Below are positions 21,276 through 31,260 of a DNA stretch of 64,000 nucleotides, one piece after another. The notes below the pieces were generated by a model. That model was not told where the DNA came from, made no database searches, and worked only from the letters and a program-made list of their open reading frames with translations. Numbering within the stretch: the first letter of the stretch is position 1; each line of letters opens with the position of its first letter. The stretch comes from Albidovulum inexpectatum (GTDB lineage: Bacteria > Pseudomonadota > Alphaproteobacteria > Rhodobacterales > Rhodobacteraceae), in assembly GCF_002927635.1 (NCBI RefSeq), contig NZ_PRDS01000002.1:390587-454586 (forward strand), in the 5' to 3' direction. The translations under genes and the position numbers were made by a program.

Positions 21276-23174
21276 ATGGGCTATGCCGAAACATATCAAC
21301 GCTGGAGATCCGATCCCGAGCGGTTCTGGATGCAGGCCGCCGAGGCAATAGACTGGGAGCGCAAACCGACGCGGGCGCTGTTCGATGAACGGTCGCCAAT
21401 CTACGAATGGTTCTCGGACGGCCTGGTGAACACGTGCTGGAACGCGGTGGACAGGCATGTCGCGGCCGGCCGCGGCGACCAGCCGGCAATCATCCATGAC
21501 AGCCCGATCACCGGAACGAAATCCGTCCTGACCTATGCGGAATTGCAGGACCGTGTCGCACGGCTCGCCGGGGCGTTGCAGGCACGCGGTGTGGAAAAGG
21601 GCGACCGGGTCGTGATCTACATGCCAATGGTGCCCGAGGCGCTGGTCGCCATGCTGGCCTGCGCGCGGATCGGGGCGATTCACTCGGTCGTCTTTGGCGG
21701 TTTCGCCGCGCATGAGCTGGCGGTGCGTATCGATGATGCGAAACCGAAGGCGATCATCGCGGCCTCGTGCGGGATCGAGCCGGGCCGTGTCGTGGAATAC
21801 AAGCCTCTGGTCGATTCCGCGATCGAACAGGCCCAGCACAAGCCCGACTTCACCATAATCCTGCAGCGCGATCAGGCCCGCGCCGACATGATACCCGGCC
21901 GCGACCTGGATTGGCACGAAGCCCAAGAGGGGATCGAACCCGCCCCGTGCATTCCGGTCGAGGGCAATCATCCCGTCTATATCCTTTACACCTCGGGTAC
22001 GACCGGAGCGCCGAAAGGCGTCGTCCGGCCCACGGCGGGCCATCTGGTCGCCCTGAACTGGACGATGCGAAACATCTATGACGTCGGCCCGGGGGACGTG
22101 TTCTGGGCGGCCTCGGATGTGGGTTGGGTCGTGGGCCACAGCTATATCTGCTATGGCCCCCTGATCGCGGGATGCACGACCATCGTCTTCGAGGGCAAGC
22201 CGGTGGGCACACCCGACGCGGGCACGTTCTGGCGCGTCATCGCCGAGCATGGCGTGCGCAGTTTCTTCACCGCCCCCACGGCCCTGCGCGCGATCAAGCG
22301 TGAAGATCCCGAAGGCAAGCTGATCGGACAATATGACCTGTCCGGCCTGCGCGCATTGTTCCTTGCGGGCGAGCGCGCGGACCCCGACACCGTTCAGTGG
22401 GCGCAACGCCATCTGAAAGTCCCGGTCATCGATCACTGGTGGCAGACCGAAACCGGCTGGGCCATAGCGGCCAACCCAATCGGGATCGAGGAACTGCCCG
22501 TGAAGATCGGCAGTCCGTCGGTTGCCATGCCGGGCTATGACGTGGAGGTGCTGGACGAAGGCGGCCACCCCGTCCCGCCGGGCACGCTGGGCGCGATTGC
22601 CGTGCGCCTGCCGCTTCCGCCGGGCACCCTGCCCACGCTGTGGAATGCCGAAGAGCGGTTCCGCAAGTCCTATCTGTCGCACTTTCCCGGCTATTACGAG
22701 ACGGGGGATGCGGGTTATATCGATGAAGATGGCTATCTCTACATCATGGCGCGCACCGATGACGTCATCAATGTCGCGGGCCACCGCCTGTCCACGGGCG
22801 CGATGGAAGAGGTTCTGGCCAGCCATCCCGACGTGGCCGAATGCGCGGTCATCGGGGTCGCCGACGATCTGAAGGGCCAGGTGCCGCTGGGCTTTCTGTG
22901 CCTGAATGCCGGATCGAACCGCAAGCCCGACGAGGTTGTCGCCGAATGCGTTCGCCTGGTGCGCGAGCAGATCGGCCCCGTGGCGGCCTTCAAGCAGGCG
23001 GTCGTGGTCGATCGCCTGCCCAAGACGCGGTCCGGCAAGATCCTGCGCGGAACCATGGCCAAGATCGCCGATGCACAGGACTTCAGGATGCCGGCCACGA
23101 TTGATGATCCCGCGATCCTCGACGAAATCCGCGAGGCCCTTGGCGCGCTTGGATACCCCAGATCAAAGCGGTGA
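21276..23174 (+). CDS. prpE: Propionyl-CoA synthetase (propionate--CoA ligase)
   Basis: The 632-residue adenylate-forming enzyme activates propionate with ATP and CoA. Motifs are YTSGTTGAPKG (ATP binding), the acetylatable lysine in KTRSGKILRG, and the PrpE-type segment VVGHSYICYGPLIAG followed by GTPDAGTFWR. Acetyl-CoA synthetase is the close alternative, but the GTPDAG pattern and length favour PrpE. An AGGAGG site precedes ATG 21276. Propionyl-CoA can reach malate through methylmalonyl-CoA and succinate, so the upstream maeB may be a metabolic partner (inference). Confidence 0.92.
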   Translation: MGYAETYQRWRSDPERFWMQAAEAIDWERKPTRALFDERSPIYEWFSDGLVNTCWNAVDRHVAAGRGDQPAIIHDSPITGTKSVLTYAELQDRVARLAGALQARGVEKGDRVVIYMPMVPEALVAMLACARIGAIHSVVFGGFAAHELAVRIDDAKPKAIIAASCGIEPGRVVEYKPLVDSAIEQAQHKPDFTIILQRDQARADMIPGRDLDWHEAQEGIEPAPCIPVEGNHPVYILYTSGTTGAPKGVVRPTAGHLVALNWTMRNIYDVGPGDVFWAASDVGWVVGHSYICYGPLIAGCTTIVFEGKPVGTPDAGTFWRVIAEHGVRSFFTAPTALRAIKREDPEGKLIGQYDLSGLRALFLAGERADPDTVQWAQRHLKVPVIDHWWQTETGWAIAANPIGIEELPVKIGSPSVAMPGYDVEVLDEGGHPVPPGTLGAIAVRLPLPPGTLPTLWNAEERFRKSYLSHFPGYYETGDAGYIDEDGYLYIMARTDDVINVAGHRLSTGAMEEVLASHPDVAECAVIGVADDLKGQVPLGFLCLNAGSNRKPDEVVAECVRLVREQIGPVAAFKQAVVVDRLPKTRSGKILRGTMAKIADAQDFRMPATIDDPAILDEIREALGALGYPRSKR

Positions 23175-23193: not shown

Positions 23194-23225
23194 GGGCCGG
23201 GCCGACGCGCCCGGCCCTTGCCTTT
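23194..23225 (+). terminator. Rho-independent terminator after prpE
   Basis: Arms GGGCCGGGC and GCCCGGCCC (9 bp, perfect) flank a 6-nt loop and are followed by TTGCCTTT. It lies 20 nt after the prpE stop and separates prpE from the lux-box promoter of the phosphorelay. Confidence 0.75.
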
Positions 23226-23254: not shown

Positions 23255-23302
23255 ACCTGACGAATCGGACAGGTTGGCCCATCGCCCGTCGTTCTTTAAA
23301 TA
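23255..23302 (+). promoter_or_regulatory. Lux-box-like operator with adjoining -35/-10 elements
   Basis: Bases 23255-23274 read ACCTGACGAATCGGACAGGT, a 20-bp ACCTG-N10-CAGGT dyad. It agrees with the Vibrio fischeri lux box at 16 of 20 positions. TTGGCC (23274-23279) and TAAATA (23297-23302) are 17 nt apart and form a plausible promoter, putting the operator centre near -43, the classical position for LuxR-type activators that touch RNA polymerase. The transcript would start about 23307-23309, before the hybrid kinase. No luxR or luxI gene is in the window. Confidence 0.6.
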
Positions 23303-23379
23303 CAGGGCATATGCAACCATCGGGTGTATCGTGTGCCGTTTCGATTTCCAGTGTTCCGCGAACTGTCCGGGGGTTTCCC

Positions 23380-24888
23380 GTGCGGGGTGACGATCTGACC
23401 AATCAGCCGCAATCCGAAACCGATGCCCGCATGGCGCTGCTTGGTCACGATCTGCGCGCGGCAGTTTCCGACATTCTGGGCGGATTGCGCTTGATCGAGA
23501 CAGACCGTCTGGAGCCGGACATGCGATTGCAGATGGGCCGTGTGCGCAGCGCGGCCGACACGCTGGCATTGCTGCTGGAAGACGCGCTCGCAGCCCTGGT
23601 TGACCCGAACGACGCCAAAAGCGACCATGCCGAGGCGCTTCGTCTCAACACACTCTTGCGCGACATCGAGATGCGATGGTCCGGCCGGGCACAGGAAAAG
23701 GGTCTGCGCTTCGTTCTGGAACGCGATCCCGAAACCCCGGATCTGGTCGCGCTGGAGCGGATCGCGCTGGAGCGCATCCTGTCGAACCTGTTGTCCAACG
23801 CCATCAAATACACCGACGAAGGCGCCATCCGGCTGCGCGCAAGTGTCGGTCAGGACGGGGCCCTTGTGTTTTCAGTTACGGACGATGGTCCGGGCTTTGC
23901 CAAAGAGGCCCTGCAACGCCTGTTCGAGTTCGGCGGCAGACCCGAAGGCGCCGCGCGGCCGGGTCAGGGTCTGGGACTGCACATTTCCCATCGGATGGCC
24001 CAGCGCCTTGGCGGAGAAATAACTGTCGTCAACCTGCCCGACCACGGTGCATGCGTCACGCTGACCCTGCCGCGCACGGCCTGGGGGATGGCCGCCGCCG
24101 AGGATGTCCCGCCCCTTCCCGACCTGTCCGGCCTGCGAGTGCTGGTGGCCGAAGACAGCGCAACCAACCGCCTGCTGATCGAAAGGATGCTGGCGCATCT
24201 GGGCGCGGTCTCCGTTGGCGTCCGGGACGGGATCGACGCATTGGAACGTCTGGAGCGCGACGACTTCGACCTGGCGCTGATCGATATCGAAATGCCCCGC
24301 CTGAACGGGATCGAGGTCATGCGGGCGATCCGCGAGTCGCGTGGGGCCAGGCTGCCCATCGTGGCCATCACGGCCTATGTGCTGCGGGCAAATCGCGAGG
24401 CGATCTATGCCGCGGGCGCCGACGCGATCCTGGCAAAGCCATTGGGCGGGCTGGATTCATTCGGCCAGGCTCTGGCTCGGGTCGTGGGCCGTCATTCACC
24501 ACCCCCCCGGCCATCGACCACAGCGGGCGAGTCTGTCGCCTTTGACCGCGCAACCTTTGATCGGCTGATCGAGATTGCCGGGCCCGACGGGCGCCAGGAA
24601 TTGCTGGATCGTCTTGCATCGGATCTGCGCAACACCGAACGCGATCTGGTGGCGGCCCTGAAGGCCGACGACCGGGCCACGATCCGTTCCGCGACCCATG
24701 TGCTGATTGCGCTGGCCGGTGCGGTTGGCGCACGCTGCCTGCAGCATCAGGCACAGGACCTGAACCAGGCCGCGCATCGCGGCGACGGGACGATTGCCGA
24801 GCAGACCGGCAAGCGGCTGCTGGCCGATCTGGACCGCCTGATCCATTTCATCGACGACGAGCGTGCCAAAGGCGGGATGCGGACATGA
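23380..24888 (+). CDS. Hybrid histidine kinase without a sensor domain: HisKA - HATPase - receiver - HPt
   Basis: The 502-residue protein (from GTG 23380) goes straight into the dimerisation helix with His23 in LLGHDLRAA. The ATPase domain follows: N box SNLLSNAIKY (Asn140), DDGPGF (Asp168), GQGLGL at 196-201. Next is a receiver domain with ED at its start, phospho-acceptor Asp302 in IDIEMP and Lys353 in AKP, and a C-terminal HPt-like domain with His440 in ATHVLIALAG, where the usual Lys and Gly after the His are Ile and Ala. No membrane segment or PAS/GAF domain is present. ATG 23311 is an alternative start but lies almost on the predicted transcription start, whereas GTG 23380 has GGGGG 6 nt before it. 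The stop overlaps the LuxO-like gene (ATGA). Confidence 0.8.
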   Translation: MRGDDLTNQPQSETDARMALLGHDLRAAVSDILGGLRLIETDRLEPDMRLQMGRVRSAADTLALLLEDALAALVDPNDAKSDHAEALRLNTLLRDIEMRWSGRAQEKGLRFVLERDPETPDLVALERIALERILSNLLSNAIKYTDEGAIRLRASVGQDGALVFSVTDDGPGFAKEALQRLFEFGGRPEGAARPGQGLGLHISHRMAQRLGGEITVVNLPDHGACVTLTLPRTAWGMAAAEDVPPLPDLSGLRVLVAEDSATNRLLIERMLAHLGAVSVGVRDGIDALERLERDDFDLALIDIEMPRLNGIEVMRAIRESRGARLPIVAITAYVLRANREAIYAAGADAILAKPLGGLDSFGQALARVVGRHSPPPRPSTTAGESVAFDRATFDRLIEIAGPDGRQELLDRLASDLRNTERDLVAALKADDRATIRSATHVLIALAGAVGARCLQHQAQDLNQAAHRGDGTIAEQTGKRLLADLDRLIHFIDDERAKGGMRT

Positions 24889-26258
24889 CCGATGCGCCGC
24901 TTCTGCTGATCGAGGATACGCCCTCGCTGCGGCTGGTCTATCGCTCGGTCCTGCAATCGGCCGGCTACACGGTTGTCTGCGCCTCTGACGCCCAAGAGGG
25001 GATGGCGGCCTTTCGCAAGCATCGCCCGCATGTGGTTCTGCTGGACCTCGTGCTGCCCGATCGGGATGGCCTGACCCTGATGCGCGACATGCTGCGGGCC
25101 GACCCTTCGGCCAATGTCATCGTCATCACGGCAAATGGTTCGATCAACAAGGCGGTCGAGGCCATGCGTGCCGGAGCGCACGACTTCCTGGTCAAACCGT
25201 TCGACGAGTCACGCCTGCTCTCGGCGGTCGAGAATGTCTCCCGCGCCGCACGACCCGAACCCGCAGGAGCATCGCGATCGGACGCGCCGCCGGGAGAATT
25301 CATCGGCACTTCGCCGGCCATGCAGCAGGTCTATGGCCGCATCCGTTCCGTTGCCCGATCCATGGCAACGGTCTTCATCACCGGCGAAAGCGGGACGGGA
25401 AAGGAACTTTGCGCCCAGGCGATCCACGCGCTCTCCAGCCGCTCCAGCGGGCCCTTCGTGCCGCTCAATTGCGGGGCGATCCCGGCCGAGCTGATGGAGT
25501 CCGAAGTGTTCGGTCACGTCAAGGGCTCGTTCACCGGGGCGATCACCGACAAGCAGGGGGCCGCCGCCGCGGCCGATGGCGGCACGCTGTTTCTGGACGA
25601 AATCTGCGAACTGGATCTGAACCTGCAGACGAAGCTTCTGCGTTTCCTTCAGACCTCGATGATCCAGCCGGTCGGCGCAACGCAGGCGCGCAAGGTGAAT
25701 GTGCGCATCATCTGCGCCACCAATCGCAACCCGATGGAAGAGGTGCGGCGCGGCCGTTTTCGCGAAGATCTCTATTACCGTCTTCATGTCGTACCGATCC
25801 ACATGCCCCCGCTGCGAGATCGCGGCCGGGACGTCGTCGCGATCGCCGAGGCTGCCCTGAGGGACTTCGCGCGCGAGGAACGGCGGGGCTTCATGCGCCT
25901 GCATCCCGACGTGGCAAACCTGTTTCAGCGGCTGCGCTGGCCCGGGAATGTGCGCCAGCTGCTGAACGTGATCCGCCATGTCGTCGTTCTGAATGACGGG
26001 CTGGAGGTCACGCCCGAGATGCTGCCCATCGAATTGCATCACGAGGCCGAGCCCGGAGCATATGCCGCCGACGAAACCGGCCCTTCGATGACGCTTGACG
26101 GGCTGATCGGAAAGACCCTGGCCGAAATCGAACGCATGGTGATCGAGGAAACGATCGAACGCCATGGCGGGTCGGTGCCCAAGGCGGCGCGGGTATTGGA
26201 TGTCTCGCCTTCAACCCTGTACCGCAAGATCGAGGCGTGGAAGCGCGACGAACGCTAG
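24885..26258 (+). CDS. LuxO-like sigma-54-type response regulator (receiver - AAA+ - Fis HTH)
   Basis: This 457-residue NtrC-family protein has a receiver domain (Asp54 in LLDLVLPDRDG, Lys104 in LVKPF), Walker A GESGTGKE at 167-174, the sigma-54 contact loop as GSFTGA (214-219), Walker B GGTLFLDEI at 232-240, and a Fis-type HTH ending VSPSTLYRKIEAW. By eye it follows Vibrio LuxO closely (ADGGTLFLDE-C-E, LQTKLLRF-QT, VSPST-YRK). LuxO, when phosphorylated, activates sRNA genes with sigma-54. Here it overlaps the sensor-less hybrid kinase by 4 nt, so the pair should form a complete His-Asp-His-Asp relay. Target promoters are not identifiable within the window. Confidence 0.88.
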   Translation: MTDAPLLLIEDTPSLRLVYRSVLQSAGYTVVCASDAQEGMAAFRKHRPHVVLLDLVLPDRDGLTLMRDMLRADPSANVIVITANGSINKAVEAMRAGAHDFLVKPFDESRLLSAVENVSRAARPEPAGASRSDAPPGEFIGTSPAMQQVYGRIRSVARSMATVFITGESGTGKELCAQAIHALSSRSSGPFVPLNCGAIPAELMESEVFGHVKGSFTGAITDKQGAAAAADGGTLFLDEICELDLNLQTKLLRFLQTSMIQPVGATQARKVNVRIICATNRNPMEEVRRGRFREDLYYRLHVVPIHMPPLRDRGRDVVAIAEAALRDFAREERRGFMRLHPDVANLFQRLRWPGNVRQLLNVIRHVVVLNDGLEVTPEMLPIELHHEAEPGAYAADETGPSMTLDGLIGKTLAEIERMVIEETIERHGGSVPKAARVLDVSPSTLYRKIEAWKRDER

Positions 26259-30366: not shown

Positions 30367-30500
30367 GGGACGAGTGTCCTGCCAGATGGTTAACCAAATC
30401 TTTGCGCGGGAGGACTTGACCGGGACCCAGCGGAAATTCCCGGCGCCGGCCGAACAGATATGCGTGCGATTGAAAAGCCCGAAGCCATCCGGAAAGAATA

Positions 30501-30526
30501 AGGGCCTGCAGTTTCCTGCAGGCCCT
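30501..30526 (-). terminator. Strong hairpin, probable minus-strand terminator of the polyamine cluster
   Basis: AGGGCCTGCAG and CTGCAGGCCCT are perfect 11-bp complements around a TTTC loop. On the minus strand the stem is followed by TTATTCTTT, a fair U tract, so it could end transcripts arriving from the amidohydrolase gene about 600 nt away. On the plus strand the tail is poor. Confidence 0.5.
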
Positions 30527-30651
30527 GATACTGTTTCAAAATACCCAACAGTCCACTCGGAATTACACCACTATCTCGGTAACCGTCACCACTTACTACC
30601 CTCTATAGGTGTATTAAAGCTTCGTTCATCATAAGAGGGAACTAGCATTTT

Positions 30652-30677
30652 GGGACATGTCCAAATGGACAAGTCCC
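30652..30677. repeat. Imperfect 11-bp palindrome with 4-bp spacer
   Basis: GGGACATGTCC (30652-30662) and GGACAAGTCCC (30667-30677) are complementary at 10 of 11 positions around AAAT. It lies 75 nt before the DUF1810 start. The preceding 12-mer CATTTTGGGACA (30646-30657) recurs exactly at 62164-62175. Confidence 0.5.
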
Positions 30678-30751
30678 GCCCAGCAAAGGACCGGATTGGT
30701 TGAGTATTCCAGGCGATTGGTGGAAACTTTCCCGCAAGTGGGGTGGGCCGC

Positions 30752-31260
30752 ATGGGGTTTGAACATCATATCGATGCCCAACGCAACACCTTTGAGCGTG
30801 CGCTTGAGGAATTGCGCTCGGGCCGCAAGCAGGGTCACTGGATGTGGTTCATTTTTTTTCGCAGCTTCGCGGGCTTGGCCGTTCGGAAATGGCGAACCGT
30901 TTCGGCCTGCGGGATCTGGAGGATGCATGCGCCTACGCCGCCGACCCGGTGCTGGGCCCTCGTCTGGCCGAGGCATTCCACGTAATCCTGTCACACCCAA
31001 CGGTAAGCGCCGAGCAGATTCTGGGCGAAGTCGACGCGATGAAGCTGCGATCCTGCGCCACGCTGTTTGCCTGCTGCAACGACACCCGGATCGCACCGCT
31101 GGCGCGCGAGGTTCTGCACAGATTCTATCGCGACATACCTTGCCCGCTTACGTTGCAGATGCTGTCCAAGGACGAAAGCGGCATCCGCTGTTCGATCAGG
31201 TCCGCCCAGAATGAACAGCCGGCGGGCATTATCTCGTCGTTGAAATCGTATTCAGGGTGA
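30752..31260 (+). pseudogene. DUF1810 family gene disrupted by a frameshift at a T8 run
   Basis: The first frame from ATG 30752 gives an N-terminal DUF1810 piece (RALEELRSGRKQGHWMWFIF). After the run of eight T at 30852-30859 the domain continues in another frame as SQLRGLGRSEMANRFGL, then YAADPVLGPRLAEAF, and later DAMKLRSCATLFA. Six T would restore the family sequence WMWFIF-Q-GLG without a gap. The domain should end near 31165; the frame then runs on to 31260 over the end of the convergent M20 gene. DUF1810 proteins are small and helical with no established function. A sequencing error at the homopolymer is possible. Confidence 0.75.

Follow-up and report, generated by a model that had tools for sequence, protein, structure and literature searches.

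A lux-type box before a LuxO-type phosphorelay in Albidovulum inexpectatum, a candidate link between quorum sensing and phosphorelay

The window analysed here is a stretch of 64,000 nucleotides (nt) of the alphaproteobacterium Albidovulum inexpectatum (C2:390587-454586, contig NZ_PRDS01000002.1, of a 3.0-Mb genome in 27 contigs). It contains the genes of a hybrid histidine kinase and a LuxO-type response regulator, and a lux-type dyad stands in front of this pair. The pair and its promoter comprise the following features (helix-turn-helix is abbreviated as HTH):

23255..23274, no strand assigned: lux-type dyad ACCTGACGAATCGGACAGGT, read in the sequence and conserved in the genus
23274..23279, plus strand: -35-like TTGGCC, abutting the dyad; TTGG is near-invariant among the 17 dyad carriers of the genus
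23297..23302, plus strand: -10-like TAAATA, with a 17-nt spacer from the -35; relatives often have TACAAN
23311..23331, plus strand: conserved leader block (ATGCAACCnnnACTTGTAttc in relatives), beginning 8 nt past the -10
23311..24888, plus strand: sensorless hybrid histidine kinase, starting at ATG 23311 or GTG 23380; HATPase_c and Response_reg by Pfam
24538..24885, plus strand: C-terminal HPt domain of the kinase, from the alignment; its profile matches solved HPt domains, LuxU among them
24885..26258, plus strand: LuxO-type response regulator with receiver (Asp54), sigma-54 AAA+ domain with GSFTGA, and Fis-type HTH

An earlier note on this DNA had described the dyad and the abutting TTGGCC-N17-TAAATA, and both are present as described. 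ACCTGACGAATCGGACAGGT is the sole exact ACCTG-N10-CAGGT in the window.

The regulator shows the domain set of LuxO by Pfam (receiver, sigma-54 AAA+ and Fis-type HTH). Among the NCBIfam models LuxO scored best with 539.9 bits, 145 bits above ntrC (394.5), and solved LuxO was the best structure by sequence (402 bits vs. 302 for the next protein). The four NtrC-family paralogues of the genome reached 150-273 bits against LuxO and matched best to NtrX, NtrC or PgtA models. A tree of 43 rows split the window regulator, 30 relatives and 8 LuxO rows from these four paralogues at 100/99; its root is unsure, because the paralogue branches are long. The NCBIfam scores, the structure match, the paralogue scores and the tree thus reject the assignment as just an NtrC. 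A true LuxO was rejected on three tests as well. The NCBIfam equivalog cut-off of 800 bits was not reached, the 8 Vibrio/Photobacterium LuxO rows formed a clade of their own (100/100) with the window regulator in a separate clade (100/98) of the same superclade, and the diagnostic glycine of the autoinhibitory linker of LuxO (G145 in V. cholerae, G141 in V. angustum; PMC4878744) is Glu138 in the window. Glycine occurs here in 41 of 116 family rows, which include four duplicates. The contact motif is GSFTGA in the window and in 83 of these rows, GAFTGA in 21, and the threonine is kept in the window. Seven of the 11 HTH residues reported as critical for qrr binding by LuxO (PMC11407668) are identical. 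By tree, cut-off and linker residue, the regulator is a member of the LuxO superclade distinct from Vibrio LuxO; the earlier claim of a LuxO-like regulator stands for its grouping with LuxO instead of the four NtrC-family paralogues and fails for the Vibrio LuxO clade.

By source name, several of the regulator's closer relatives belong to Defluviimonas or Albidovulum, and some relatives are called LuxO by their source (among the best 120 of 7094 matches). LuxO-type relays were found in 36 of the 91 family genomes searched. LuxO was said in 2016 to appear absent from non-vibrio genomes (PMC4878744), and many LuxO homologues have been reported (PMC524169).

For the kinase, Pfam detected only HATPase_c (plus the overlapping HATPase_c_2) and the receiver. 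The C-terminal HPt domain is supported by a profile of 10 sequences, whose best solved matches were HPt domains (LuxU 1y6d, E 0.016). Numbered from ATG 23311, the kinase has the H-box His46, the N-box Asn163, the receiver Asp325 and the HPt His463, and all phospho-accepting residues are intact. No sensor domain was found in the kinase and none was seen ahead of the H-box. The order HisKA-HATPase-REC-HPt without sensor, as proposed in the earlier note, was thus confirmed by Pfam for HATPase and receiver and supported by the profile for the HPt, while the HisKA part follows from His46, which was assigned by reading the sequence and not by Pfam. The HPt histidine is conserved in all 53 hybrids compared and the HisKA histidine in 51 (missing in L045 and L084); three duplicates and five distant hybrids (L073, L075, L081, L090, L092) were left out. 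In the kinases L084 and L045 other catalytic residues are altered too, with the HPt histidine intact.

Relatives of the regulator also have short partners, and 29 of 35 carry the HPt histidine motif; among the other six, L142 has a divergent HPt-like sequence with a histidine and others look unrelated. Parsimony on the regulator tree gave a hybrid (fused) ancestor with at least 5 changes. Labels were available for 81 of 111 rows (24 HPt, 57 hybrid); unlabelled were L120, L018 and L140, owing to a cut by the contig end or a match to receiver and HPt only, and 27 rows without clear partner. A recent fusion of LuxU to the kinase was rejected, as parsimony infers the hybrid ancestor. At the relay loci L018 and L140 the partner matches the kinase in its receiver and HPt part alone and may be intermediate between the fused and the standalone form.

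The closest known layout is that of SypF and SypG in V. fischeri, whose genes are reportedly neighbours. They likewise combine a hybrid kinase with C-terminal HPt and a LuxO-like sigma-54 regulator (PMC10162802, PMC12369376). According to the same papers the HPt of SypF is sufficient on its own to complement a sypF deletion, and standalone-HPt forms of the relay exist among the relatives studied here. The likeness is one of layout, taken from published descriptions. Differences are that here no syp polysaccharide locus adjoins, the kinase has no sensor region and a lux-type box lies at the promoter. The fusion of kinase and HPt next to a LuxO-like regulator, which the earlier note had counted towards a different wiring, is therefore a known layout, and by parsimony the fused form would be ancestral.

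The conservation of the dyad was followed with a search for the regulator in 148 genomes. At E <= 1e-110, 44 genomes matched, including 20 of the 22 of the same genus; no match at this threshold was obtained in same-genus G010 and G015. The region upstream of the relay was readable in 19 of these 20 genomes (in G006 the contig breaks off). The dyad was present in 17 of 19 promoters with at least 17 of 20 positions of a consensus derived from the same promoter sequences it scores, and with TTGG abutting; it was missing in G004 and G021. This conservation upstream of orthologous pairs supports the earlier note, for which a lack of it would have counted as refutation. In the 17 carriers the -35 begins at a near-constant distance of 35-38 nt before the leader ATG. 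Aligned on the dyad, and with G004 and G021 left out, they hold 1.51 bits per column in the dyad compared with 0.15 in the 60 nt upstream and 0.18 after the leader block. A chance dyad was rejected, since conservation in the same-genus promoters rules against it. Outside the genus, the dyad was seen in G044 (16/20) and G060 (15/20). When 84 relay upstream regions (four duplicate loci and rows below 380 residues (L145) dropped) were compared with the 12-position arm pattern, 14 were perfect and 8 had one mismatch, some of the latter at unlike distances. Thus, the relay dyad is limited to this genus plus a few other loci.

The centre of the dyad lies about 45 nt before the likely transcript start. 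The conserved ATG 23311 opens a short open reading frame (ORF) ending before the kinase in all 19 relatives with the leader block, which is absent in L122 and L142. In the window the kinase continues this ORF without a change of frame, and GTG 23380 could equally well be the kinase start. The leader block itself (ATGCAACCnnnACTTGTA) shows strong conservation at the nucleotide level in window and relatives. A possible antisense pairing between the leader and transcripts driven by the boxes was tried and dropped (16 pairs, combined p 0.20).

The genome has 2 LuxI-type and 5 Autoind_bind matches. One luxR-luxI (gtaRI-like) operon lies downstream of genes which we take to be rpoA-rplQ-like, and its box ACTTGTCTAAAGGGACATGT, of the same family as the relay dyad, overlaps the luxR start. 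Machinery for acyl-homoserine lactone (AHL) signalling and a related box at its own operon thus accompany the relay, which supports the starting point of the earlier note. With palindromic sites counted on both strands, the box family ACNTGNC-N6-GACANGT gave 62+65 strand hits in the 22 same-genus genomes against 9+3 in the backward control (127 vs. 12). The corresponding values were 13+11 vs. 13+9 in 15 other genomes of the family and 11+6 vs. 3+7 in 24 genomes of the class. The exact box lies at the start of the GtaR-type luxR in 20 of the 21 same-genus genomes having this gene (exception G010). A -35 of the type TTGA(C/T) lies 17 nt before a weak -10 within the box in 18/18 luxR promoters, which were picked for carrying the box. 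By ORF clustering luxI follows luxR in 16 of these 18, and also in G020; it was not found beside luxR in G015.

GtaR of R. capsulatus was reported to bind across the -10 and the start of its own promoter (PMC6363796), and the luxR promoters, with a -35 and the box over the -10, show the same arrangement. CerM of C. sphaeroides, a GtaR paralogue, recognizes TNT(N5)AAGACA(N2)T, a motif described as similar to the GtaR site; it needs no AHL for DNA binding and activation, and its activating site lies near a predicted promoter (PMC11655674). Both GtaR and CerM are reported to act without AHL. The box TGTCTAAAAAGACATGT (L181) fits the CerM motif exactly. A divergent LuxR-type pair, one member without HTH (C2:317636-318805; L148:5619-6827, G000:C2), is arranged like CerM-CerN in C. 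sphaeroides. The genome encodes two further LuxR-type proteins with HTH in addition to the GtaR- and CerM-like ones.

G004 offers a natural test. No GtaR orthologue was detected in this genome; the best match (40%) is the neighbour of a CerN-like match and of the sole LuxI match in the genome. The relay promoter of G004 keeps TTGGCG, TAAAGC and 14 of 15 leader positions; the dyad slot keeps only 5 of 20. The dyad alone would therefore have eroded where GtaR is undetected, which fits binding by GtaR. The co-occurrence of LuxI and dyad was discarded as uninformative, because 87 of the 148 genomes have LuxI.

We propose, with a probability of about 0.55, that a GtaR-type LuxR protein would bind the dyad and activate the SypF-SypG-like pair when AHL is scarce, crowding turning the relay down. 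This protein is the predicted binder of the relay dyad. It would act as a repressor at luxR-luxI, where the box covers the -10, and as an activator at the relay, just upstream of the -35 (about -45). Its action without AHL would be analogous to that of R. capsulatus GtaR and C. sphaeroides CerM, and because these are reported to act without AHL, the relay would be lowered by AHL: made at low density, falling as AHL rises. The kinase would probably autophosphorylate on a cytoplasmic cue, with phosphate passing from His46 via Asp325 and His463 to Asp54 of the regulator, which would act with sigma-54. In this scheme AHL would act through the promoter box on how much relay is made, and a second, probably cytoplasmic, cue would act through the kinase on its phosphorylation, so that the module would integrate both. 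More tentatively, and at somewhat less than even odds, we suggest that the whole AHL circuit is wired transcriptionally into a LuxO-type phosphorelay: signal-free GtaR would activate the pair and repress luxR-luxI at low density, and AHL would reverse both. If true, the low-density-on state of LuxO, which is reached in Vibrio by phosphorylation, would here be rebuilt from a lux box, a convergent rewiring.

Several observations weigh against activation by signal-free GtaR. We infer the sign of regulation from paralogues only. The relay box deviates from the CerM motif at three positions, the genome's own luxR-luxI box at two. G021 has GtaR (62%) and a box at luxR, yet its relay lacks the dyad. 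G044 has the dyad variant ACCTGCC...GGCAGGT without GtaR orthologue (best match 37%) or LuxI match, and its kinase (L084/L124, one locus) lacks the H-box histidine. In the set of 84 upstream regions, 62 had at least two mismatches to the arm pattern. A generic promoter scan called no sigma-70 site at the weak relay -35/-10. The bare ACCTG-N10-CAGGT pattern is not rare, with 3 places in the 3.0-Mb genome vs. 2 in the backward control; the dyad stands above chance because it is conserved before the relay genes across the genus. For the sigma-54 step, the motif is GSFTGA in place of GAFTGA, the regulator is retained in genomes without RpoN match (complete G001, G009, G062 and G068; incomplete G006, G088 and G134), and genome scans tied no LuxO-type enhancer or sigma-54 target to the regulator.

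Alternatively, an AHL-loaded LuxR-type activator could bind the dyad, like LuxR at luxI of V. fischeri, and the relay would then be on at high density. A dyad abutting the -35 with its centre near -45 is the classical position of LuxR-type activators, and the two LuxR-type proteins with HTH beyond the GtaR- and CerM-like ones would be available. We consider this unlikely, as the dyad belongs to the family found at the gtaRI-like operon, whose characterised regulators GtaR and CerM reportedly act without AHL. A LuxR-type repressor at the dyad, or a CerM-like instead of a GtaR-like binder, appears still less probable. Such a binder could be supplied by the CerM/CerN-like pair; the motif bound by CerM is related, and its activating site is close to a predicted promoter (PMC11655674). 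G004, however, keeps CerM- and CerN-like matches, yet neither a GtaR match nor the dyad, and the relay dyad leaves the -10 uncovered, unlike the luxR-luxI box. That the dyad serves another regulator or extends the core promoter, with no link to AHL, is improbable. Boxes of the same family stand at the start of luxR in 20 of the 21 same-genus genomes that have the GtaR-type gene, the family is enriched genus-wide, and in G004 only the dyad has eroded. In favour of this reading, conservation continues through TTGGCG and the leader block, the exact pattern is not rare genome-wide and G044 keeps a dyad without GtaR or LuxI matches.

In the proposed scheme, sigma-54 would act at the output of the relay. 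An RpoN DNA-binding domain (E <= 0.001) was found in 30 of the 36 family genomes with the regulator vs. 11 of 55 without it, some of the latter being weak or partial matches (p 2e-9, phylogeny uncorrected). The threonine of the contact loop is lost in 3 of 4 complete RpoN-negative vs. 4 of 29 RpoN-positive genomes (p 0.023), an association weakened because the threonine-keeping incomplete RpoN-negatives G006 and G088 were left out. The LuxO enhancer TTGCA-N3-TGCAA occurred at one place in the genome, beside a presumably AsnC-like gene, and equally often in the control, so it was not used. The scan for sigma-54 promoters suggested in the earlier note (TGGCAC-N5-TTGC) gave 10 hits vs. 4 in the control, 9 of them within ORFs, and tied none to the regulator. 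The sole intergenic hit (L104:1501-1515, G000:C6:116850) lies about 46 nt before a regulator gene, which we assume to be of the XRE type, with TTGCAAAAAGCAA about 160 nt upstream, and is a candidate sigma-54/LuxO-type target.

The relay of Vibrio LuxO sits upstream of, and apart from, LuxR-type proteins responding to AHL. If activation by GtaR is true, this order would be reversed, and a LuxR box would set the amount of relay per cell. Common to LuxU-LuxO and the present system is an HPt feeding a LuxO-type regulator, and among named families LuxO comes closest in NCBIfam scores, in solved structures and in the tree; different are the separate clade, the score below the cut-off, glutamate for the linker glycine and the HPt fused to the kinase. 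As in the GtaR-GtaI and CerM-CerN systems, luxR-luxI lies behind rplQ-like genes and has its box across the -10, and the motifs are related; the LuxR-type proteins of those systems reportedly act without AHL. The relay box differs in lying upstream of the -35. Quorum sensing feeds a phosphorelay in Rhodobacterales also through CckA-ChpT-CtrA (PMC11655674, PMC6473078). That relay is a different one, under quorum control that PMC11655674 describes as indirect. In the present genome the box stands at the promoter of the relay itself, a concrete candidate for a quorum-phosphorelay link in this order, if the proposed binding is true. The main text of PMC11655674 does not mention LuxO, NtrC or HPt. 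Among the open-access papers listed for Rhodobacter, Rhodobacteraceae and alphaproteobacteria, none describes a lux box before a LuxO-type relay in its title or the start of its abstract. Thus, the earlier interpretation is partly supported: the parts are known, and the wiring would be new. The erosion of the dyad alone where GtaR is undetected, together with the occurrence of the relay in fused, standalone and receiver-HPt form across the family, makes the circuit testable in ordinary environmental strains.

Further features of the window are:

21276..23174, plus strand: acyl-CoA synthetase gene, upstream neighbour and synteny marker, from the list of open reading frames
23199..23217, plus strand: terminator-like hairpin, 3' of the synthetase gene and 5' of the dyad
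30655..30674, no strand assigned: second box of the same family, ACATGTCCAAATGGACAAGT, from the pattern search

The synthetase gene, presumably acs/prpE-like, was matched at 76 of 112 unique relay loci, some of which are truncated by contig ends. With a terminator-like hairpin between this gene and the dyad, the kinase-regulator pair plausibly has its own promoter. The other immediate neighbour, behind the regulator, lies on the opposite strand and is taken to be nadK-like.

Behind the second box, on the minus strand, come a -10-like TATGAT and, some 130 nt further, a strong terminator-like hairpin (30498-30674; 125-nt fold z -3.79). Box and hairpin are possibly a short transcript driven by a LuxR box. 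Similar sites were seen in G009 (L182) and G006 (L214), which share the neighbour gene; the hairpin sequences differ by eye. An Rfam scan, which covered the window only, gave no match at gathering score. About 100 nt from the second box, a gene fragment on the plus strand (~30750-31260), which we take to resemble DUF1810, is apparently frameshifted at a T run. That intergenic boxes drive small RNAs was rejected, several boxes having proved to precede small ORFs. Such ORFs occur in several same-genus genomes (L192, L201, L218, L200, L171, L175, L186) and by eye have FPELPP or FPEL(A/V)PP and a hydrophobic stretch in common; they seem to encode a family of small proteins under quorum control.

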